A program made the translations under genes and the position numbers. Source: Clostridia bacterium (GTDB taxonomy: Bacteria > Bacillota > Clostridia > Christensenellales > CAG-138). Taken from it: 36,458 nucleotides of DNA. The notes beneath the pieces were generated by a model, which worked only from the letters and a program-made list of their open reading frames with translations, did no database searches and was not told the DNA's origin. The stretch lies in NCBI GenBank assembly GCA_017539215.1, contig JAFYHI010000017.1:1-36458 (forward strand). Reading direction: 5' to 3'. This document shows positions 13,320-24,243 of this stretch, piece after piece (the first letter of the stretch is position 1; each line of letters starts with the position of its first letter).

Positions 13320-14333
13320 TCAGCTCTCCGCCTTTGCGGCGCGTATCTTTTCGGTGAGCATGGGAACGACCTTGTTGAGGTCGCCTACCACGCCGTAGTC
13401 GGCGATGTTGAATATGGGGGCGGTCTCATCGCGGTTGATGGCGATTATGAGGTCGCTCTCCTCCATGCCGGCAAGGTGCTGTATCGCGCCGGAGATGCCC
13501 ACGGCGATATAGAGCTTGGGACGCACGGTCTTGCCCGTCTGACCCACCTGCAGCTCCTTATCGACCCAGCCTGCGTCGACCGCCGCGCGGGATGCGGAGA
13601 CCCTTCCGCCAAGCGCGTCGGCAAGGTCGTAAAGCATTTGGAAATTCTCCTTGCTGCCCATGCCGCGCCCGCCGGAGACCAGTATGTCCGCCTGGGAGAT
13701 ATCCACGGACTCGTTCATCTTTTTGATGACGTCCAGTATCTCGACGTACCTGTCGTTCTTCTCGAACTTGACGCCGAAGGGCAGAACGCGGGCGCGCCTG
13801 CCGCTGACGCGCTCGGCGCGCTGCATGACGCCGGGACGCACGGTGGCCATCTGCGGACGGAAGTCCGGGCACACGATGGTGGCCATGAGGTTGCCGCCGA
13901 ACGCGGGACGGGTCATAAGAAGGCGGCCGGTCTCCTTGTCTATCTCGAGCTTGGTGCAGTCGGCGGTAAGGCCGGTATGCACCCTGGCGGATACGCGGGG
14001 CGCAAGGTCGCGGCCGATGGTGGTGGCGCCGTACAGCACGACCTCGGGCTTGAAGAACTCGATAACGCTGTGCATGGCGTGGGCGTAGGGCTCGGTCATG
14101 TAGCTTTCAAGCGCGGGATCGTCCACAAGGACGACGGTATCCGCGCCGCACTCGCCCAGCTCGTCCGCAAGACCCGCAACGTTATAGCCGCAGAGCACCG
14201 CGGAAACGCCCGTGCCAAGGTCCTTGGCGAGCTCCCTCGCCTTGCCGATAAGCTCAAAGCTGACGGGAGCGATAACGCCCTCCACCTGCTGAACAAATAC
14301 GTAAACGCCTTTATATTCGCTGAACTGATTCAT
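13320..14333 (-). CDS. etfA: Electron transfer flavoprotein alpha subunit
   Basis: 337 residues. EtfA binds FAD and pairs with EtfB to pass electrons to or from acyl-CoA dehydrogenase. The C-terminal FAD domain is clear: SGGRGMGSKENF, AVDAGW, QVGQTGKTVRP, LYIAVGISGAIQHLAGM and APIFNIADYGVVGDLN. The N-terminal half is the alpha/beta fold shared with EtfB. The start is the ATG at 14333 with GAGGTG before it; an ATG at 14345 overlaps the end of etfB and lacks a site. It is the last gene of acd-etfB-etfA. Confidence 0.96.
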   Translation of the reverse strand: MNQFSEYKGVYVFVQQVEGVIAPVSFELIGKARELAKDLGTGVSAVLCGYNVAGLADELGECGADTVVLVDDPALESYMTEPYAHAMHSVIEFFKPEVVLYGATTIGRDLAPRVSARVHTGLTADCTKLEIDKETGRLLMTRPAFGGNLMATIVCPDFRPQMATVRPGVMQRAERVSGRRARVLPFGVKFEKNDRYVEILDVIKKMNESVDISQADILVSGGRGMGSKENFQMLYDLADALGGRVSASRAAVDAGWVDKELQVGQTGKTVRPKLYIAVGISGAIQHLAGMEESDLIIAINRDETAPIFNIADYGVVGDLNKVVPMLTEKIRAAKAES

Positions 14334-14344
14334 ATAGCACCTCA

Positions 14345-15130
14345 TTAAATAACGAACTTCTCACGAAGCTTGGACACGAGATAATCGGCCTCGGCCTCGG
14401 CGTCGAGCGTGACGACCTCGCCCTTGCCCTTGAGCGCCTTGGGGAAGCTCTCCTTGACCCTGGTGGGCGAGCCCTTAAGGCCGATGTTGGAGTCGTCCAC
14501 GGGGACGTCGGCGCGGGCCCAGACGGTGACCTGCTTCTCACGGTAGGCGGAGAATATGCCGCCGGGGGTCATATAGCGGGGACGGTTAAGCTCGGTCAGA
14601 GCGGTGACAAGGCAGGGCATCTTGACTCGGACGACCTGATAGCTGTTTTCAAACTGCCTTTTGACGATGAGGCTGTCGCCGACCACGCGGATCTCCTCCG
14701 CATAGGAGACGTTGGGTATGCCCAGGTGCTCCGCCATCTGCGGGCCGACCTGCGCGGTGTCGCCGTCTATCGCCTGGCGGCCGGTAAAGACTATGTCGTA
14801 AGGCAGCTTGGAGACCGCCGCGGCAATGGTGGAGGATGTGGCCCAGGTGTCGGCGCCGCCGAACGCGCGGTCGCTGATAAGGTACGCCTCGTCAGCGCCC
14901 ATGGCAAGCGCCTCGCGCAGCACGGCGTCCGCCTGAGCGGGGCCCATGGACACGACGCGCACGCACGCGCCCAGCTCGTCCTTGATGCGCAGAGCCGCCT
15001 CAAGGCCCGCCTTGTCGTCGGGGTTCATAATGGAGGGGACGCCCTCGCGGATAAGGGTGCCGGTCTTGGGATCAAGGCGCACCTCGTTGGTGTCCGGCAC
15101 CTGCTTTATGCAAACTACTATATTGAGCAT
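14345..15130 (-). CDS. etfB: Electron transfer flavoprotein beta subunit
   Basis: 261 residues with the EtfB signature: N-terminal IVVCIKQVPDTNEVR, then the nucleotide-site segment FTGRQAIDGDTAQVGPQMAE and the C-terminal arm PTRVKESFPK that wraps the alpha subunit. The GDTAQVGP stretch is shared by ETFs of the electron-bifurcating butyryl-CoA type, which reduce crotonyl-CoA and ferredoxin with NADH; bifurcation here is inference. SD is GGAGGT. It lies 15 bases after acd and 11 before the etfA start. Confidence 0.96.
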   Translation of the reverse strand: MLNIVVCIKQVPDTNEVRLDPKTGTLIREGVPSIMNPDDKAGLEAALRIKDELGACVRVVSMGPAQADAVLREALAMGADEAYLISDRAFGGADTWATSSTIAAAVSKLPYDIVFTGRQAIDGDTAQVGPQMAEHLGIPNVSYAEEIRVVGDSLIVKRQFENSYQVVRVKMPCLVTALTELNRPRYMTPGGIFSAYREKQVTVWARADVPVDDSNIGLKGSPTRVKESFPKALKGKGEVVTLDAEAEADYLVSKLREKFVI

Positions 15131-15145
15131 ACTTTATTACCTCCG

Positions 15146-16285
15146 TCAGCTTAAAAGACTGCCCGAGATGACCATGCGCTGCACCTCGCTGGTGCCCTCG
15201 TATATCTCGGTTATCTTGGCGTCGCGCATCATGCGCTCCACCGCGTACTCGCGGGTGTAGCCGTAGCCGCCGTGAAGCTGTACGCACTTGGTCGTGACCT
15301 CCATAGCCGTCTCCGCCGCAAAGAGCTTTGCCATTGCGGCCTCTACAGAGAAGCGCTTCTGCGTATCCTTGGCATAAGCGGCCTTGTAGACCAGCATCTT
15401 TGCGGCCTCTGTCTTTGCGGCAAGGTCTGCAAGCGTGAACTGCGTGTTCTGGAACTGGGCAATGGTGCGGCCGAACTGCTTCCTTTGTTTGACGTATGCA
15501 ACCGTCGTCTCAAGCGCGCCCTCGGCAATGCCCAGCGCCTGCGCCGCGATGCCTATCCTGCCGCCGTCCAATGTCGCCATGGCGATGGAGAAGCCCTTGC
15601 CCTCCTGCCCGAGCAGATTCTCACGCGGGATGCGGCAGTCGCGGAATATCAGCTCGTAAGTGGAGGAGCCGCGAATGCCCATTTTCTTTTCCTTGGTGCC
15701 GAAGGTGAACCCGGGGGCGCCCTTTTCGACTATGAACGCCGATATGCCCTTGGTGCCCTTTGACGGGTCGGTCATGGCGAAAACAATGTAAATATCGGCC
15801 TCTTTGCCGTTGGTGATGAATATCTTGCTGCCGTTCAAGACGTACTGCTCGCCCTCTAAAACGGCCTTGGTCTGAACGCCCGCGGCGTCGGTGCCGGCGC
15901 CCGGCTCGGTCAGCGCGAACGCGCCCAGCTTATCGCCCGAGGCGAGGGGCTTTAAGTACTCCTCCTTCTGGGCGGGCGTGCCGAATTTATATATGGGGTC
16001 GCAGCAGAGCGAGGTGTGCGCCGAAACTATGACGCCCGTGGTGGCGCAGCGCTTTGACAACTCCTCAACGCACATGACGTAAGTCAAGGAATCGCAGCCC
16101 TGACCGCCGAATTCGCGCGGTATGGGTATGCCCATGAACCCGTAACGCTGAAGCTTTTCGACCGTCCCCTTGGGGAACTCCTCCGTCTCGTCGACCTCGG
16201 CGGCGTAGGGCTTTACCTCGTTCTCCGCAAACTCGGAGAAGAGCGTCCTTGCCATAAGGTGTTCGGAGCTTAATTTAAAATCCAT
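15146..16285 (-). CDS. Acyl-CoA dehydrogenase (butyryl-CoA dehydrogenase type)
   Basis: 379 residues, the normal length for short-chain acyl-CoA dehydrogenases. Seen: the flavin and substrate motif FALTEPGAGTDAAG, the C-terminal LHGGYGYTREYAVERMMRD, and the catalytic base Glu in ITEIYEGTSEVQRM. All active-site landmarks are intact. With the EtfBA genes next door it probably works as a Bcd/Etf complex reducing enoyl-CoA during butyrate-type fermentation. The other pathway genes (thl, hbd, crt) are not here, so the acyl-CoA preferred is not certain. Start at the ATG with GGAGG five bases upstream; an upstream TTG at 16297 is less likely. Confidence 0.93.
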   Translation of the reverse strand: MDFKLSSEHLMARTLFSEFAENEVKPYAAEVDETEEFPKGTVEKLQRYGFMGIPIPREFGGQGCDSLTYVMCVEELSKRCATTGVIVSAHTSLCCDPIYKFGTPAQKEEYLKPLASGDKLGAFALTEPGAGTDAAGVQTKAVLEGEQYVLNGSKIFITNGKEADIYIVFAMTDPSKGTKGISAFIVEKGAPGFTFGTKEKKMGIRGSSTYELIFRDCRIPRENLLGQEGKGFSIAMATLDGGRIGIAAQALGIAEGALETTVAYVKQRKQFGRTIAQFQNTQFTLADLAAKTEAAKMLVYKAAYAKDTQKRFSVEAAMAKLFAAETAMEVTTKCVQLHGGYGYTREYAVERMMRDAKITEIYEGTSEVQRMVISGSLLS

Positions 16286-16371
16286 AAAGGCCTCCAATCA
16301 GTTCTTACACGGCCCGTGTGCAGCCGCGCATAGCCCGGGAGCGCGTCGGCGCATACCCGCGGGTAAATATC

Positions 16372-16531: not shown

Positions 16532-17848
16532 ATGAAAACACCCGTAAAAAAGAGGGCTCCGCGCTGGATGCCGCTGGACAACGCCGCAAAGATATACCCC
16601 CCGGCAATGACCGAGGGGTGGAACGCGCTGTTTCGCGTGTCTGTCACGCTTGACGAGCCCGTGGACCGTCAGGTGCTGAAAAGGGCGCTTTTGCGCACGG
16701 CGGCAAGGTTCCCCAACTTCACCATGCATTTAAGGCGCGGCTTCTTTTGGTATTATCTTGAAAAGCTGGACGGCGTGCCGGAGATACGGGACGACGTGCG
16801 CAACCCCTGCGCCAGGCTGAACTTCCGTGAAAACGGGGGGTTCGCGTTCAGGATACGCTGCTACAACCGCCGTATCGCGGTGGAGATATTCCACGCGATA
16901 ACCGACGGCGGCGGCGGGATATCGTTTTTGAAGACGCTGACCGCCGAATACGTTTCCATAAAATACGGCGTGACCGTGCCGCGCGGCGGGGACATACTGG
17001 ACTGCTCGGACCAGGCCTCGGAGGAGGAGCTGTCGGACGGCTTCTTAACACACGCCGGGCCCGTTGCCGTGCCGGAGCCCGCAGGCCGCGCATACAGGAT
17101 AAAGGGCACGCGCGACCGCGACTTTCTGCATGTGACGACCGGCATACTGGACTCCGCCGAGGTATTGTCGCGGGCAAAGGCCCTGGGCGTGACCGTTACC
17201 GAGTATTTAACGACCGTGCTGCTGTTTGCGGCCTCTGACTTGAAACGGGTCAAGCGGGACTTCTTTCAGAAGCGGCGGCCCGTTATGGTGACGGTGCCCG
17301 TGAACCTGAGAAGGCTTTTCAACTGCCGCACGCTTAGGAACTTTGCAAACTATGCGAACGTGGGCCTTGATACGCGCCTTGGGGAGTACGGGTTTGAGGA
17401 GGCCGCAAGGATAGTCCACCACCAGCTGAAGCTGGGCTGCGACCCGCACCGGCTTGCGGCAAAGGTTGCCTCGAACGTCAACATAGAAAAGAACATTTTT
17501 ATGCGCCTGGTGCCGCTCTTCATAAAGGACCCAGTCATGGCCCTTGCCTACCGCATAGAGGGCGACAGGAAATCCACCACCTGCTTTTCGAATCTGGGGC
17601 AGATAACCCTGCCGCCCGAGATGGAGGCGCACGTTGAGCGGTTTGACTTTATGCTGGGCTCCCTTGCCGAAAACCCCGTGGCCTGCGCCGCGGTGGGGTA
17701 CGGGGGCAGGCTGATGATAAACTTTACCCGCGTCATTGAGGAGAGCTTTCTGGAACGCGCCTTTTTCACAAGACTGGTGAAGATGGGCCTGCACGTTATG
17801 GTGGAAAGCAACGACGCCGCGCAGGGCTGCGGCGCTCAGGGAGATTGA
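16532..17848 (+). CDS. Condensation-like acyltransferase (alcohol acetyltransferase-type, CAT fold)
   Basis: 438 residues. The key motif is EIFHAITDGGGGISFL (near residue 115-130), an HxxxDG catalytic motif of the chloramphenicol acetyltransferase/condensation superfamily, with His as base. A second region (PVMVTVPVNLRRLF) fits the fold's bridging loop. Proteins of this sort are annotated alcohol acetyltransferases or condensation-domain proteins; the acyl donor and acceptor are unknown. No strong SD is seen, and the promoter -10 is very close to the ATG. It overlaps no gene and is one base upstream of the DUF6320 start, so they are co-translated. The function is probably acylation of a lipid, alcohol or small metabolite. 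Confidence 0.75.
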   Translation: MKTPVKKRAPRWMPLDNAAKIYPPAMTEGWNALFRVSVTLDEPVDRQVLKRALLRTAARFPNFTMHLRRGFFWYYLEKLDGVPEIRDDVRNPCARLNFRENGGFAFRIRCYNRRIAVEIFHAITDGGGGISFLKTLTAEYVSIKYGVTVPRGGDILDCSDQASEEELSDGFLTHAGPVAVPEPAGRAYRIKGTRDRDFLHVTTGILDSAEVLSRAKALGVTVTEYLTTVLLFAASDLKRVKRDFFQKRRPVMVTVPVNLRRLFNCRTLRNFANYANVGLDTRLGEYGFEEAARIVHHQLKLGCDPHRLAAKVASNVNIEKNIFMRLVPLFIKDPVMALAYRIEGDRKSTTCFSNLGQITLPPEMEAHVERFDFMLGSLAENPVACAAVGYGGRLMINFTRVIEESFLERAFFTRLVKMGLHVMVESNDAAQGCGAQGD

Positions 17849-18656: not shown

Positions 18657-18684
18657 CCGCAGGCAAACCTGCGGGGTGATTTTT
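18657..18684 (+). terminator. Attenuator-like terminator in ABC-F leader
   Basis: CCGCAGG-CAAA-CCTGCGG (7-bp perfect stem) is followed by GGTGATTTTTG, and lies only 23 bases before the ABC-F start codon and downstream of that gene's own promoter. A terminator in this position can only control the gene it precedes. Confidence 0.65.
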
Positions 18685-18706
18685 GTGTTCGGAAAGCGAG
18701 GGACCC

Positions 18707-20233
18707 ATGATACAACTGAACGGTTTATCCATATTCAACGCCGCTGACGGGCGCAGGCTCGTCGACGGCCTTTCCTTTACCCTGAACCGGGGCGACCGCA
18801 CGGTGCTTATTGGCGAGGAGGGCAACGGCAAATCCACTCTGTTAAAATACATTTACGATCCCCGTCTTGTGGAGGGCCGCGTGTACGCGACGGGCTCCGT
18901 CACGCGCGGCGGCCACCGCATGGGGTATCTGGCGCAGGAGGCCTCAGCAGAGGAGAACGCCCTTTCGGTGCGCGAATTCCTGGGTCTGGAGGAGCATGAG
19001 CTTTGGCGGGCGGAGGCGCTGTGCGCCGAGCTTGACGCCGACCCCGCCCTTGTGCGGGAAACGCGCCCGCTCGGCACGCTGTCGGGCGGCGAGCGCGTGA
19101 AGACGCGCCTTGTAAAGGTGCTTTTGGGCGAGCCCGATATGCTGCTTTTGGACGAGCCGACGAACGATATCGACATAGAGACCCTTGAATGGCTCGAGGG
19201 TATGATAAACAGCTTCGATGGCGGCGTGCTGTTCGTTTCGCACGACGAGACGCTTATCGAGAACACGGCGAAGGCGGTCATACATCTGGAGCATATACAC
19301 CACAAAAAGGTGGCGCGCAGCACCTACGCCGCCCTGCCATACCGCCGCTACGTTGAGGAACGCGAGCGTGCGTTCGCACACACGGCGCAGGTGGCGGCCT
19401 TTGAACACGCCGAGCAGAAAAAGAAGGAGGAGCGCTGGCAGAAGATCTACGAAAAGGTGGACGCGGCCCAGCGCGGACTTACGCGGCAGGACCCATCCAC
19501 CGGACGCCTGCTTAAAAAGAAGATGCACTCGGTGCTGTCGCAGGGGCGCCGTTTGGAACGCGAGCGCGAAAACCTGACCGAGGCGCCCATGGCCGAATTT
19601 CAGATACTGCTGGCCCTGCCCGAGGTGAGCCTGCCGCCGAAGAAGGAGCTGCTGCGCCTGCGCGGGGAGCGGCTGCTGCTGCCCGACGGGCGGGCGATAG
19701 GGGGCGAATTCGACCTTGACGTTAACGCGGCGGAGCATATCGTGATAACGGGGCGCAACGGCAGCGGCAAATCGACCCTTTTGAAAATGCTGTACGCGCA
19801 GCTTTGCGCAAGGCGCGACGTGAACGTGTTTTATATGCCGCAGGACTATTTCGAGGTGCTTGACGAGAACGACACCCCGATAAGCTTTCTTGCGCCCACG
19901 GGCGAAAAGGACGCCGTGACGCGCGCCAGGACGTATCTTGGCAGCGTGCGCTTTACAAAGGACGAGGCGCAAAGCCCCGTTTCAAAGCTGTCCGGCGGGC
20001 AAAAGGCCAAGCTGTTCTTTGTGAAAATGGCGCTTGACGGGCCGGACGTACTGCTTTTGGACGAGCCCACGCGCAATTTCAGCCCGCTCTCCGCGCCGGT
20101 CATACGGGAGCTTATAAGCTCGTTCGGCGGCTGTGTGATAGCGGTTTCGCACGACCGCAGGTTTATAAGCGAGGTCGGACGCAGGATCGTCCGCATGGAG
20201 GATCTGACGGGCGCAAACGTGCATCGCCCCTGA
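18707..20233 (+). CDS. ABC-F family ATPase (ribosome protection-type)
   Basis: 508 residues with two ABC ATPase domains and no membrane segment, the ABC-F layout. Domain 1: Walker A GEEGNGKS (36-43), signature LSGGE (125-129), Walker B MLLLDEP (145-151). Domain 2: Walker A GRNGSGKS (349-356), signature LSGGQ (429-433), Walker B VLLLDEPTRNFSPLS (448-462). The linker (about 190-300), rich in Lys/Arg/Glu, is the arm that enters the ribosomal P-tRNA site in this family. ABC-F proteins rescue stalled ribosomes or displace antibiotics (macrolide, lincosamide, pleuromutilin). The leader, with a small ORF and terminator, argues for an antibiotic-responsive member. The start ATG (18707) has GAGGG before it; an upstream TTG is unlikely. 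Confidence 0.88.
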   Translation: MIQLNGLSIFNAADGRRLVDGLSFTLNRGDRTVLIGEEGNGKSTLLKYIYDPRLVEGRVYATGSVTRGGHRMGYLAQEASAEENALSVREFLGLEEHELWRAEALCAELDADPALVRETRPLGTLSGGERVKTRLVKVLLGEPDMLLLDEPTNDIDIETLEWLEGMINSFDGGVLFVSHDETLIENTAKAVIHLEHIHHKKVARSTYAALPYRRYVEERERAFAHTAQVAAFEHAEQKKKEERWQKIYEKVDAAQRGLTRQDPSTGRLLKKKMHSVLSQGRRLERERENLTEAPMAEFQILLALPEVSLPPKKELLRLRGERLLLPDGRAIGGEFDLDVNAAEHIVITGRNGSGKSTLLKMLYAQLCARRDVNVFYMPQDYFEVLDENDTPISFLAPTGEKDAVTRARTYLGSVRFTKDEAQSPVSKLSGGQKAKLFFVKMALDGPDVLLLDEPTRNFSPLSAPVIRELISSFGGCVIAVSHDRRFISEVGRRIVRMEDLTGANVHRP

Positions 20234-20252: not shown

Positions 20253-20281
20253 TTGACGGGGGAACCGTGCTGGAATATAAT
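20253..20281 (+). promoter_or_regulatory. Promoter of SPT-like/SDR operon
   Basis: TTGACG (20253-20258), a 17-base spacer and TATAAT (20276-20281), a near-perfect promoter. Confidence 0.85.
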
Positions 20282-20300
20282 GGGGTATTGATAATTTACG

Positions 20301-20328
20301 CGCCGCAGGGCAAAAACCCCGTGCGGCG
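20301..20328 (+). promoter_or_regulatory. Hairpin in leader of SPT-like gene
   Basis: CGCCGCA(GGG)...(CCC)G-TGCGGCG forms a stem of ten pairs with one bulge and a loop of CAAAAAC, at about +13 to +40. There is no T tract after it. It may stabilise or regulate the mRNA. Confidence 0.5.
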
Positions 20329-20361
20329 GCATAGCAAACCAGTGTTGCGGAAAGGAATCAT

Positions 20362-21558
20362 ATGGATCTTTTTGACAAGTGTTTCAATCCCCTCGTTGCG
20401 CGTATCAGGGACGAGGGCATCTACCCCTATTTCCACATGCTGGAGTCAAGGCAGGACGTTGAGGTCATTATGGAGGGCAGGCGCCGCATAATGCTGGGCT
20501 CCAACAACTATCTGGGGCTCACCTCGAACAAGCGCGTTATAGAGGCCGGCGTCGCCGCGCTCGAAAGGTACGGCAGCGGCTGTTCCGGCTCTCGTTTTTT
20601 GAACGGCACGCTCGACCTGCACGTTCAGCTTGAGACCGAGCTTGCCGAGTTTTTGGGCAAGGAGGCCGTTATGACTTTCTCCACCGGGTTCCAGTCGAAC
20701 CTGGGCATAATAAGCGCGATCGTCGGCAGGAACGACTACATGATCTGCGATAAGGAGAATCACGCCTCCATTTACGACGGGTGCAAGCTCTCCTACGGCA
20801 AGATGCTGCGCTACCGCCACGCCGATATGGATGACCTTGAGGCGCAGCTTCAGCGCGTGCCCGAGAACGCGGGCAAGCTCATTATAACCGACGGCGTGTT
20901 CTCTATGGGCGGCGACATTGCAAAGCTGCCCGAGATAGTCGCCCTTGCCGAAAAATACGGCGCAAGGGTCATGGTGGACGACGCGCACGGCCTGGGCGTA
21001 TTGGGCGAGAACGGCCGCGGCACCGCCGACTACTTCGGCCTGACCGACAAGGTGGACATAATCATGGGCACGTTCTCAAAGAGCCTTGCCTCAATAGGCG
21101 GGTACATGGCGGGCGACCTGCGCGTGGTGGATTACGTGCGGCACGCCTCGCGCCCGTTCATATTCTGCGCGTCCATACCGCCCGCGTCCTGCGCCACCGC
21201 GCTTGAGGCGCTGCACATCATGAAGGAGCAGCCCGAGCTGCCCAAGCACCTGCTTGCGCTTGCCTCGCACATGCGCAGGGGCCTGCGCGAGCGCGGCATT
21301 GCCATACGCGACAGCATCACGCCCATTATACCCATTTACACCTACACCGACGAGCGCACGCTTATAAAGGCCAAGGAGCTTTACGACGAGGGCGTTTACG
21401 TCAACCCCGTGCTGCCCCCCGCCACTCCCGCGGACGAGTGCCTGCTGAGGACGAGCTATATGGCCACCCACACCGTGGAGCTTTTGGACGAGGCGCTGGA
21501 CATAATCGAAAAGGTCATTGGCCACACCGCAGAGGAGCGCGTGACGACGGAGGCTTGA
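20362..21558 (+). CDS. Serine palmitoyltransferase-like alpha-oxoamine synthase (PLP)
   Basis: 398 residues. PLP enzymes of this family condense an amino acid with an acyl-CoA. Seen: ring-stacking His in NHASIYDG (H134), pyridine-N Asp in VDDAHG (D206 or D207), Schiff-base Lys in GTFSKS (K240). Within the family it is closest by eye to bacterial serine palmitoyltransferase rather than KBL, BioF or HemA: SNNYLGLT, YGSGCSGSRFLNGT, RPFIFCASIPP, and above all VNPVLPPATPAD, where PPATP (352-356) is the mobile loop described for bacterial SPT. The proposed reaction, serine plus palmitoyl-CoA to 3-ketosphinganine, is inference. It has its own promoter and is followed 5 bases later by an SDR gene. 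Confidence 0.8.
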   Translation: MDLFDKCFNPLVARIRDEGIYPYFHMLESRQDVEVIMEGRRRIMLGSNNYLGLTSNKRVIEAGVAALERYGSGCSGSRFLNGTLDLHVQLETELAEFLGKEAVMTFSTGFQSNLGIISAIVGRNDYMICDKENHASIYDGCKLSYGKMLRYRHADMDDLEAQLQRVPENAGKLIITDGVFSMGGDIAKLPEIVALAEKYGARVMVDDAHGLGVLGENGRGTADYFGLTDKVDIIMGTFSKSLASIGGYMAGDLRVVDYVRHASRPFIFCASIPPASCATALEALHIMKEQPELPKHLLALASHMRRGLRERGIAIRDSITPIIPIYTYTDERTLIKAKELYDEGVYVNPVLPPATPADECLLRTSYMATHTVELLDEALDIIEKVIGHTAEERVTTEA

Positions 21559-21563
21559 ATAAT

Positions 21564-22361
21564 ATGAGCGGTTCGGGGATGAGGGCCGTCGTCACCGGCG
21601 GCACGAGCGGCATTGGGCTTGCGATAGTCAAAGAGTTCGTCCGCAGGGGCGCCGTGGTCTACGCGCTTGCAAGGCGCGAGGCTCCGCTTCCCGAGGGGGC
21701 GGTCTTCGTACGCTGCGACGTGACGGACGAAAAAAGCGTGGCCGCCGCCGCGGCGGAGATACTCTCACGCGAGGGACGCATAGACGTGCTTGTGAACAAC
21801 GCGGGCTTCGGCATTTCGGGCGCGGTGGAGTTTACGGAGCTTGCGGACGCGAAAAGGCAGTTCGACGTTAACTTCTTCGGCATGGTCAATATGACCAAGG
21901 CCGTGCTTCCCGCGATGCGCAAAGCGGGCGGAGGCATGATAGTGAACATAAGCTCCGTCGCCGCGATGACGCCCATACCCTATCAGGCGTACTATTCCGC
22001 CTCAAAGGCCGCGATAAACGCCTATACCATGGCGCTTGCGAACGAGGTGCGCGGGCACAGCATAAAGGTCTGCGCGCTTATGCCCGGCGACGTGAAAACG
22101 GGCTTCACCGCCGCAAGGAAAAAGTCGCTTGAAGGCACGGACGCCTACCCCGCGCTTGAAAAGTCCGTCCGCACGATGGAGCGCGACGAGCAGAACGGCA
22201 TGCCGCCCGAGGCGCTTGCCCGCCGCGCGTACTTTATTGCCACGCGCAGGCATCCAAAGCCGCTGTATTCCTGCGGGTTCTCGTACAAGCTCTTCTGCGT
22301 GCTGGCAAGCGTGCTGCCCAAACGCCTTGTCAATTGGATACTTTCGAAGCTGTACGGTTAA
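21564..22361 (+). CDS. Short-chain dehydrogenase/reductase (possible 3-ketosphinganine reductase)
   Basis: 265 residues of the classical SDR type. Nucleotide motif TGGTSGIG (11-18), structural NNAG (78-81), catalytic Ser in NISS (128-131), Tyr144 and Lys148 in YYSASK. The C-terminal 35 residues are hydrophobic and basic (SCGFSYKLFCVLASVLPK), suggesting membrane contact, as in lipid-acting SDRs. Next to an SPT-like synthase the simplest role is reduction of the 3-keto product, as 3-ketodihydrosphingosine reductase does; this rests only on position and fold. The longer open frame from 21438 belongs to the other gene's end; this ATG has GGAGG ten bases before it. Confidence 0.82.
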   Translation: MSGSGMRAVVTGGTSGIGLAIVKEFVRRGAVVYALARREAPLPEGAVFVRCDVTDEKSVAAAAAEILSREGRIDVLVNNAGFGISGAVEFTELADAKRQFDVNFFGMVNMTKAVLPAMRKAGGGMIVNISSVAAMTPIPYQAYYSASKAAINAYTMALANEVRGHSIKVCALMPGDVKTGFTAARKKSLEGTDAYPALEKSVRTMERDEQNGMPPEALARRAYFIATRRHPKPLYSCGFSYKLFCVLASVLPKRLVNWILSKLYG

Positions 22362-22396
22362 AGGCTCCTTTGACCGATAAAAGAACAGGTTTTTTC

Positions 22397-22426
22397 AAAG
22401 CCCGCGCAGTTACCGGCGCGGGCTTT
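22397..22426 (+). terminator. Hairpin after SPT-like/SDR operon
   Basis: AAAGCCCGCGC and GCGCGGGCTTT form an 11-bp perfect stem with an 8-base loop. The plus-side T tract is poor (GTGCACGTTT). Probably a terminator of the preceding operon. Confidence 0.6.
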
Positions 22427-22512
22427 GTGCACGTTTGAGCCCGAAAAGCGCGGGCGCAGCAAGGGGTTTGGCCGCCGCAGCGCGTCCGCAAAAAAATATA
22501 TCTTTCCGATAG

Positions 22513-22568: not shown

Positions 22569-23066
22569 TTGAAAAACGATGCACTGCGGCTCCTGTATGA
22601 GAAGTACAGCCGCAAGATACTGACGTATCTTTTGAGCCTTGGGCTTGACGCGGCTTCGGCCGAGGACTTGATGCAGGAGACGTTTGTAAAGGCGCTGCTC
22701 TCGCTGGACGAGAGCCACCAAAACGCAGGCGCATGGCTTTATGCAGTCGCAAGGAACCTCTTTCTTGACCGGGCGCGCAGGCGGATAAAAGAGCTGCCGG
22801 AGTCCACGGGCGAGCTTGCGGGCGTGTCTCCCCCGCCGGAGGAACATCTGATGAAAAGGCTCGTAAGCGAAAGGCTTGCCGCCGCCATTTTAAAGCTGGA
22901 GCCGCGAAAGCGCGAAGTGATAGTCCTGCGGTATTATTCGGAGCTTTCCTTTGCGGAGGTCTCCTCGATCATGGGGATAGGATATGACAACGTGCGCGTG
23001 CTTGCGCACAGGGCGAAAAAGGATCTGAAAAAGTTTTTGGAGGATGAAGACGATGAAATACAGTGA
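22569..23066 (+). CDS. ECF RNA polymerase sigma factor (sigma-70 family)
   Basis: 165 residues with a TTG start and a very strong site (AGGAGGTGA). Region 2: SRKILTYLLSLGLDAASAEDLMQETFVKAL, with DLMQETF the -10 recognition/melting part. Region 4: ILKLEPRKREVIVLRYYSELSFAEVSSIMG, with an HTH (SFAEVSSIMGIGYDNVRVLAHRAK). A poorly charged linker joins them. It is a small extracytoplasmic-function sigma, cotranscribed with its presumed anti-sigma factor (the next start lies inside its last codons). The activating signal is unknown; it is probably cell-envelope stress. Confidence 0.92.
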   Translation: MKNDALRLLYEKYSRKILTYLLSLGLDAASAEDLMQETFVKALLSLDESHQNAGAWLYAVARNLFLDRARRRIKELPESTGELAGVSPPPEEHLMKRLVSERLAAAILKLEPRKREVIVLRYYSELSFAEVSSIMGIGYDNVRVLAHRAKKDLKKFLEDEDDEIQ

Positions 23067-24243
23067 AAAGATAGAAAAATACGCGGCGGGCGAGCTTGGC
23101 GAATCCGAAACCCGCGAGGTAGAGTACGATATAGAAAGGCACGAGGCCATATCCGATTACCTTGCCGAAAGGGAGGTCATACCGGAGCTTGGCGTGACCA
23201 AGCCGACGGAAAGCGCGGGCGCCGCCTCCCCCGCCCCTGCCGATCTTACCAAAAAGATCCGCAGGCAGATACGCCTTTCGTTTTTAAAGGCGGGGCTCAT
23301 CACGGCGGCCTGCGTTTTGGGGATAGTGTTCTTTTGCATGTACGCCCTGCCAAAGCTCATCGACGGCGCCTATTATGACCCTACCGAAAAGGTGGCTCCC
23401 CTAATGGCGGGCGACGAGGTATCGCCCACCATGACGGACCGCATGAGCCTGGACGTTTCCGTATTTTCAGAGCTGCTGCTGCCCGGCAAGTATAGGTGCG
23501 ACGTGTTTTCCGAAAGTCTGGGCAGCGGCAAATATGCCGTCAACGTACAGCAGAGCTTCTCGCACACCGGGGTATTCCGCGACACGGCCGGCTTTATAGA
23601 CCGGGGCAAGCTGACGCTCTATGACCCGAACGTATTCAAGCTCCCCGTTCAAAACGTGTTCGACACCCACGCCTCCGGCGTAGGCGACGTAAGCTTTGGG
23701 GATATCTATGACCTCGATTATGCGAGGGGCTCCGCCGAAGGCGGGGAGCGCTATCTGTACGTTACCTTTGACGGCGCGAAGGATTATGACTGGGTCTTGA
23801 ATTGGTGCAAAGAAAACGGCGTTTCCCCCGAATGGGGCGCCGTCTGTGCCGACGGAGAGATGATATTCCCCGGGCTCAACGTGGGCGTAAAGCTTATGCT
23901 GAACAGCATTATCCAAGGGTTTGAGCGCGACAGGTACCCCTACCTTACCGTGTACTCCATTGCGGAGCAAGCGGACAGCGACCTTAACGCGCCGGAGACT
24001 ATAATGAGGCAGCATATAACGAGCCTGCTTCGCTACTTTGCCGACAACACCCGAGGCATGGATATGCTGTACGGGCAAAGCGGCATTGACGATCTGGCGG
24101 AAAGCTGCCGTGCCGCTGCGGATACGATAGAGCAGAACGGCTTCAAGATCTACGGGATATCCTTTACCGCTGACGCCGAAAAGATAACCGAGCTTTATTC
24201 CAACGAAAACGTGGTCTATATGTTCAGCGAGGCGCTGAGCTGA
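23053..24243 (+). CDS. Membrane anti-sigma factor with sigma-regulator C-terminal domain
   Basis: 396 residues from an ATG at 23053 with GGAGG nine bases upstream (an ATG at 23044 is too close to that site). The first 60 residues are acidic and helical and should bind the sigma factor. A single membrane helix lies near residues 77-100 (AGLITAACVLGIVFFCMY). The remaining roughly 300 residues should be outside the membrane and resemble the sigma factor regulator C-terminal family. Gene order sigma then anti-sigma, with overlap, supports the role. It ends 38 bases before a strong terminator. What the external domain senses is unknown. Confidence 0.83.
   Translation: MKYSEKIEKYAAGELGESETREVEYDIERHEAISDYLAEREVIPELGVTKPTESAGAASPAPADLTKKIRRQIRLSFLKAGLITAACVLGIVFFCMYALPKLIDGAYYDPTEKVAPLMAGDEVSPTMTDRMSLDVSVFSELLLPGKYRCDVFSESLGSGKYAVNVQQSFSHTGVFRDTAGFIDRGKLTLYDPNVFKLPVQNVFDTHASGVGDVSFGDIYDLDYARGSAEGGERYLYVTFDGAKDYDWVLNWCKENGVSPEWGAVCADGEMIFPGLNVGVKLMLNSIIQGFERDRYPYLTVYSIAEQADSDLNAPETIMRQHITSLLRYFADNTRGMDMLYGQSGIDDLAESCRAAADTIEQNGFKIYGISFTADAEKITELYSNENVVYMFSEALS

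Follow-up and report, generated by a model that had tools for sequence, protein, structure and literature searches.

A stretch of DNA from a Clostridia bacterium encodes an enzyme resembling serine palmitoyltransferase (SPT) and an SDR resembling ketosphinganine reductase, a coupled pair that represents its own clade in Clostridia and that, judging from sequence, most likely serves a long-chain-base pathway. The window, by which we mean the whole 36,458-nt stretch analyzed, is the forward strand of contig JAFYHI010000017.1 of assembly GCA_017539215.1, a draft genome that is 70% complete. The original prediction had read the two genes as a possible sphingoid-base pair, a reading that gains support from the placement of the synthase in trees, from its SPT-type residues and from the recurrent coupling of the two genes. 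Both reading frames proved to be open and on the same strand, with the expected 5-nt gap between them (Table 1).

Table 1. Coordinates of the gene pair and of related features in the window and elsewhere in the same genome
Feature	Position	Strand	Basis
SPT-like alpha-oxoamine synthase (PLP), 398 aa	20362-21558	+	open ORF, profiles, tree
SDR resembling 3-ketosphinganine reductase, 265 aa	21564-22361	+	open ORF, KdsR model, motifs
Sigma-70-like promoter, TTGACG-17-TATAAT, 5' of the pair	20253-20281	+	consensus match 11/12
Hairpin, 12-bp stem, 3' of the SDR gene	22396-22427	+	folding; T tract absent
ABC-F gene	18683-20233		two ABC_tran stretches
ORF of 438 aa, acyltransferase of the original prediction	starts at 16532		present in the window
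YghO/bCerS-like putative N-acyltransferase	C38:25342-26457 (same genome)		28% to E. coli BL21 YghO, E 9e-34

Relationship of the synthase to serine palmitoyltransferases

Among NCBIfam models, the synthase scored best with the CFB-type SPT (NF047600; 544 bits, below the cut-off of 640), and lower with the beta-type SPT (418 bits; cut-off 500), TIGR01825 (396; 535), glycine C-acetyltransferase (KBL; 392; 460) and BioF (TIGR00858; 378; 426), exceeding none of these curated SPT, TIGR01825, KBL and BioF cut-offs. Of the solved chains, the Sphingobacterium SPT ranked highest at 446 bits, with other SPTs at about 305 bits and KBL at 267 bits. Cysteate C-fatty acyltransferase (CFAT, PDB 28eh) belongs to the same superfamily but reached only 236 bits, carries 1 of the 16 SPT-type columns described below and lies on the opposite side of the tree split. 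Four Bacteroidota-type SPT members (Sphingobacterium, PDB 3a2b/8guh, NF047600) are about 48-54% identical to the synthase over their full length and have in common with it the catalytic residues and the GSRFLNGT motif, although the synthase falls in a separate clade and under the curated cut-off.

The catalytic residues noted in the original prediction, the PLP lysine among them, are borne out by alignment to the catalytic residues of SPT (3a2b) and by invariance across 23 orthologues. They are H134, D206, H209, K240 and R363. The PPATP loop, which had been noted as known from bacterial SPT, did not survive comparison as a diagnostic motif: the Sphingobacterium SPT has SPAVP and the BL21 SPT has PPAAP at this position, and the loop also varies inside the synthase's own clade. 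The tree alignment has 20 columns that part six SPTs (three solved structures and three sequences over the cut-off, one of them near a solved one) from ten non-SPTs. The synthase has the SPT residue at 16 of the 20, including G46, S77, L80, N81, A270, N348 and S365. These columns were chosen from the same data as the tree and were checked on rows held out of the choice. Of the 16 SPT residues, 13 are found in the BL21 SPT, 1 in a KBL, and 9 (L229), 6 and 0 in three unclassed synthases. Eight Bacteroidota SPT-like rows have 10 to 14 of the 16, and two CFAT rows have 0 and 1.

In a careful tree of 52 rows, 28 of them from the query clade and with BioF and ALAS proper left out, a split supported at 98/97 separates the query clade, CFB SPT, Bacteroidota SPT-like proteins and proteobacterial SPT from KBL, TIGR01825 and CFAT. 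The SPT side contains a Bacteroidota group scoring 455-526 bits and two proteobacterial SPTs. The query clade forms one group here (100/98) and likewise a single group (99) in a quick tree of 86 rows, which left the deep order open. By AU test, a clade of query and KBL was rejected (p 2e-94) and one of query, KBL and TIGR01825 was weakly rejected (p 0.025); a clade of query and CFAT was not rejected (p 0.12), and grouping with the CFB SPT was neither recovered nor rejected (p 0.39). Placement inside KBL or BioF had been named beforehand as grounds for abandoning the sphingoid-base reading. The synthase was found outside the KBL clade by both the split and the AU test, and outside BioF as judged by profile alone. 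In the careful tree, the synthase groups with SPTs as a distinct clade.

An orthologue of at least 58% identity is present in 39 of 61 genomes searched, the source genome included, and in all 12 of the same-genus genomes searched (86-90% identity). In a sample of 391 genomes of the class, 49 contain the clade at E 1e-110; two of these 49 matches are divergent (G272, 53% identity; G385, 51%) and are possibly intermediate between the synthase clade and other clades. Among the best 80 of at least 593 confirmed matches, the named ones (62-88% identity) include many Clostridia bins, the complete genomes of Oceanirhabdus sp. W0125-5 and Tenericutes MO-XQ, one bin of the Haloplasmataceae, and some bins assigned to Bacteroidales or to Spirochaetia, the last two of which may reflect transfer or misbinning. 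Eight loci from bins named Bacteroidales or Paludibacteraceae carry the clade (L126, L147, L148, L149, L153, L154, L156 and L159), six of them with the SDR adjacent. A large group of Bacteroidota synthases (L197-L211 and L213-L223) scores about 455-526 bits with the SPT model. A second synthase, at 36-39% identity, occurs in 29 of the 39 orthologue-bearing genomes, the source genome's own copy being a fragment, and the two that were classed, from G010 and from SPT-lacking G016, are both KBL. The latter, which lies near a YghO-like gene, is a plain KBL at 660.8 bits (cut-off 460).

The reductase partner and a candidate N-acyltransferase

The SDR contains the motifs G12GTSGIG, NNAG from residue 78 and Y144xxxK. 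Its best NCBIfam model is KdsR (NF049977), to the end of which the alignment extends; it differs from the KdsR/BT_0972 type in reaching 237 bits against a cut-off of 400 and in that the gene in the window is coupled to an SPT gene. We inspected 119 loci, the window included, of which 116 remained after removal of three same-genome duplicates. The SDR adjoins the synthase in 84 of the 116 (69 downstream, 11 upstream and 4 on the opposite strand), with the adjacency in L050 entered by hand because merged hits distorted its gap. Adjacency is absent from 24 loci and from 8 more in which the flank is shorter than 1 kb on a side. No other neighbor is conserved to a similar degree: when antisense and partial frames of the synthase and SDR are left aside, the most frequent remaining sense-strand cluster occurs in only 11 of the 116, with scattered spacing. 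Seven loci, the window and six others, have the ABC-F gene in the vicinity of the pair, and in L113, L115, L119 and L124 a second SDR relative adjoins the SPT-SDR pair.

Non-adjacent cases included, the KdsR model reached at least 190 bits in 30 of 33 SPT-bearing genomes (24/27 plus 6/6) and also in 9 of 22 SPT-lacking relatives, which weakens KdsR as an SPT-specific marker. The Fisher p of 2e-5 for this association, in which a split copy counts as present (31/33), is indicative only because the genomes are related. By eye, the KdsR-like SDRs of the SPT-lacking genomes have no common neighbor. None of 14 Bacteroidota genomes had a match over the KdsR cut-off. Three of them have an SPT that does exceed its own cut-off, and their KdsR scores were 205 bits, 199 bits and, in the third, no match at 1e-30. 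In a quick tree, the 59 clostridial-type SDRs formed one group (support 85) that excluded 7 ordinary SDRs, with the two Bacteroidota KdsR candidates outside the clostridial group on long branches and with SPT-adjacent SDRs scattered over several subclades. The SDR motifs, the best match to KdsR and the adjacency in 84 of 116 loci make the SDR a good candidate for a 3-ketosphinganine reductase, the partner role originally proposed for it.

For N-acylation, the original prediction had pointed to the ORF at 16532, with the caveat that an ABC-F gene lies between it and the pair. The intervening gene is indeed there, and the ORF itself fared poorly as a ceramide synthase, with no Pfam match at 1e-3, no NCBIfam match at 1e-5 and a cluster confined, by a crude gene picker, to 3 of 39 loci (the window, L039 and L074). 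PF13480 proved unfit as a marker for ceramide synthase, since a Pfam search with BL21 YghO gave no match at 1e-3; the PF13480 match in the source genome overlaps an ORF that by eye looks RimI-like. In E. coli BL21, ECD_02850 may act as an N-acyltransferase in ceramide synthesis, according to PMC9386255. We took yghO as this gene because it lies next to genes annotated as acyl-AMP ligase, epimerase, ACP and spt. The suggested search of the same genome for a ceramide synthase then returned a distant YghO homologue on C38, away from the pair, which is a better candidate for N-acylation than the 16532 ORF.

A first search found YghO matches in 34 of 45 genomes. Six of these are Bacteroidota genomes with a CFB SPT, or with an SPT-like gene, from outside the query clade; in all six a match adjoins that gene, with an epimerase gene following in the one inspected; in a seventh (G065), which has a query-clade gene, it is not adjacent. 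A ceramide-synthase homologue also lies beside the synthase gene in all three genomes tried from the 455-526-bit Bacteroidota group. Over both searches, the homologue is present in 32 of 47 genomes with a query-clade SPT and in 9 of 39 genomes that lack one (p 4e-5). The counts are 10/12 versus 5/34 outside the home family, not including four SPT-bearing genomes whose family was not given (three positive); inside it, there is no association (19/31 versus 4/5). Ten of the 15 SPT-bearing genomes in which the homologue is missing are more than 90% complete. In a quick YghO tree, most clostridial proteins, that of C38 among them, fall in one clade (37 rows, support 100), which also includes L334; in the Bacteroidota genome G109, the matched region of L334 is separated by 29 nt from that of an over-cut-off SPT. 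The other six SPT-adjacent proteins are outside this clade, and ten further rows, that of Oceanirhabdus among them, come from genomes with or without SPT and fall elsewhere. The YghO/bCerS family has members unlinked to SPT.

The C38 gene lies between DegV/FakB-like and PlsX genes and behind a FakA-like gene, the four forming a tight row (L342, 7309-11987). This row recurs in nine same-genus relatives (L343, L344, L360, L367, L371-L374 and L393), and three of the four genes are found in G013 and likewise in G027. G046 has FakA, PlsX and the YghO homologue without DegV, and its SPT and SDR genes share a contig with these three, at a distance from them of about 11 kb. Because the DegV/FakB-like gene matches the FakB model weakly (81 of 350 bits), we can only infer a supply of acyl-phosphate. 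KdsR-like SDRs and YghO-like proteins also occur without a query-clade SPT in G016 (L277, L362), G050 (L279, L363), G055 (L281, L397) and G036 (L282, L395), the last of which is only 72% complete.

Proposed pathway and alternative readings

We think it probable that the pair catalyzes steps one and two of a long-chain-base pathway. The synthase would form 3-ketosphinganine from an amino acid, most likely L-serine, and a long-chain acyl thioester, and the SDR would convert this product to sphinganine. The YghO/bCerS-like N-acyltransferase of C38 possibly provides a third step, to dihydroceramide. We infer serine as the amino acid, the acyl length, the use of NADPH and the direction of the reaction. 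The scheme is consistent with the open genes and their tandem order, the placement on the SPT side, the SPT-type residues and the coupling across distant genomes. Counting against it are the missed SPT and KdsR cut-offs, the absence of a YghO homologue from 15 of 47 SPT-bearing genomes, its lack of association with SPT inside the home family and its identity to YghO of only 28%, the KdsR-like SDRs found without SPT, the position of the two Bacteroidota KdsR candidates outside the clostridial SDR group, the 9 of 16 columns shared by L229 and the p of 0.12 for query plus CFAT.

Reduction before acylation is the order used by eukaryotes and demonstrated for BT_0972 of Bacteroides, and the coupled SDR would permit a direct test of this order against that of Caulobacter. 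In E. coli BL21 and Caulobacter, the cluster consists of aasR, cerR, acpR, spt and cerS. The synthases are 43% identical and the window's genome has its distant YghO/CerS homologue, but the reductase of that cluster is the epimerase-type CerR, without similarity to the SDR of the window, and the cluster holds an ACP and an acyl-ACP synthetase, neither of which is encoded by the four neighboring ORFs scanned here, in keeping with the original remark that no acyl carrier protein is nearby. We speculate, tentatively and with more doubt than confidence, that a whole lineage of Clostridia from gut, rumen and sediment, together with some Mollicutes, makes sphingolipids by a eukaryote-like sequence of SPT, reductase and YghO-like N-acylation fed by FakAB/PlsX acyl-phosphate. 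In the literature cited here, such a FakAB/PlsX-fed sphingolipid route is not described for bacteria.

An SPT-like synthase that prefers alanine or glycine would lead instead to 1-deoxy or 1-desoxymethyl long-chain bases. Sequence does not reveal the amino-acid preference here, and 1-deoxysphingolipids in euxinic Black Sea water are co-abundant with bacteria bearing Spt-like genes, according to PMC11334938. On the other hand, the synthase has the SPT-type residue at 16 of 20 columns, though these may not set the choice of amino acid, and the enzyme might equally be promiscuous; we regard a dedicated alanine or glycine enzyme as unlikely. The pair could also make another acyl-aminoketone or amino alcohol, such as a signal, a pigment or a non-sphingoid lipid, through a distinct oxoamine-synthase activity, and the separate clade, the missed curated cut-offs, the p of 0.12 for query plus CFAT and the carriers without a ceramide-synthase homologue would all be compatible with this. 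CFAT itself makes a sphingoid-base analogue. Such a product is nevertheless quite improbable given the 98/97 split that joins the synthase to SPTs, the KdsR-like partner and the 0 and 1 of 16 SPT-type columns in the CFAT rows.

It is very improbable that the synthase is a KBL or a BioF paralogue. Although the superfamily is the same and BioF and KBL give 378 and 392 bits, both scores are under their cut-offs and well under that of the SPT model, a KBL clade is rejected (in a tree without BioF proper), and a second synthase of KBL level is already present in 29 of 39 carriers. The draft state of the genome at 70% completeness and the presence of the clade in some Bacteroidales and Spirochaetia bins could raise the suspicion of contamination, with a Bacteroidota contig placed in a bin of Clostridia, but the orthologues in 12 of 12 same-genus genomes (86-90%) and the recurrence of the ABC-F gene close to the pair in six further loci make this extremely improbable.

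Returning to the reading of the pair as a source of long-chain bases, its recurrence in many Clostridia suggests that bacteria not known for sphingolipids may make them. If about one-eighth of the sampled genomes of the class (49/391) carry such an SPT, in many cases with a reductase gene next to it, then Clostridia would have been overlooked as a source of these lipids. Sphingolipids in Acholeplasma are known from older literature, and a ceramide-synthesis paper in Nature Chemical Biology reportedly found ceramides from one Gram-positive species. A search of titles and abstract openings in the open-licence literature found no paper on sphingolipid synthesis in Clostridia among the matches listed, which is no proof of absence. 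According to PMC11334938, 38 phyla in the Black Sea have Spt-like proteins, and the words Firmicutes, Clostridi- and Bacillota are absent from its main text. PMC10191378 and PMC10865984 name Bacteroidota as the source of gut-bacterial sphingolipids with effects on the immunity and metabolism of the host, and BT_0972 of Bacteroides was identified as a ketosphinganine reductase, according to PMC9278070.

Sequence flanking the pair

The two genes had been described as enclosed by one consensus promoter and one hairpin. The promoter match stands, but sites of this kind are no more frequent than chance, with 1 found versus 1.3 (s.d. 1.1) in shuffled sequence; by eye, a TTGAC box is present in 8 of 11 upstream regions of same-genus genomes. 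The hairpin is a strong fold (-27 kcal/mol for a 68-nt stretch, z -3.1), but it has no T tract and was not called by a terminator scan. Upstream, EtfA, EtfB and acyl-CoA dehydrogenase genes at 13320-16297 of the window resemble an acryloyl-CoA reductase set, all under the curated cut-offs of the acryloyl-CoA reductase models. Downstream, at 22569-24243, an ECF sigma factor gene precedes one whose product ends in a sigma-factor-regulator domain at the C terminus.
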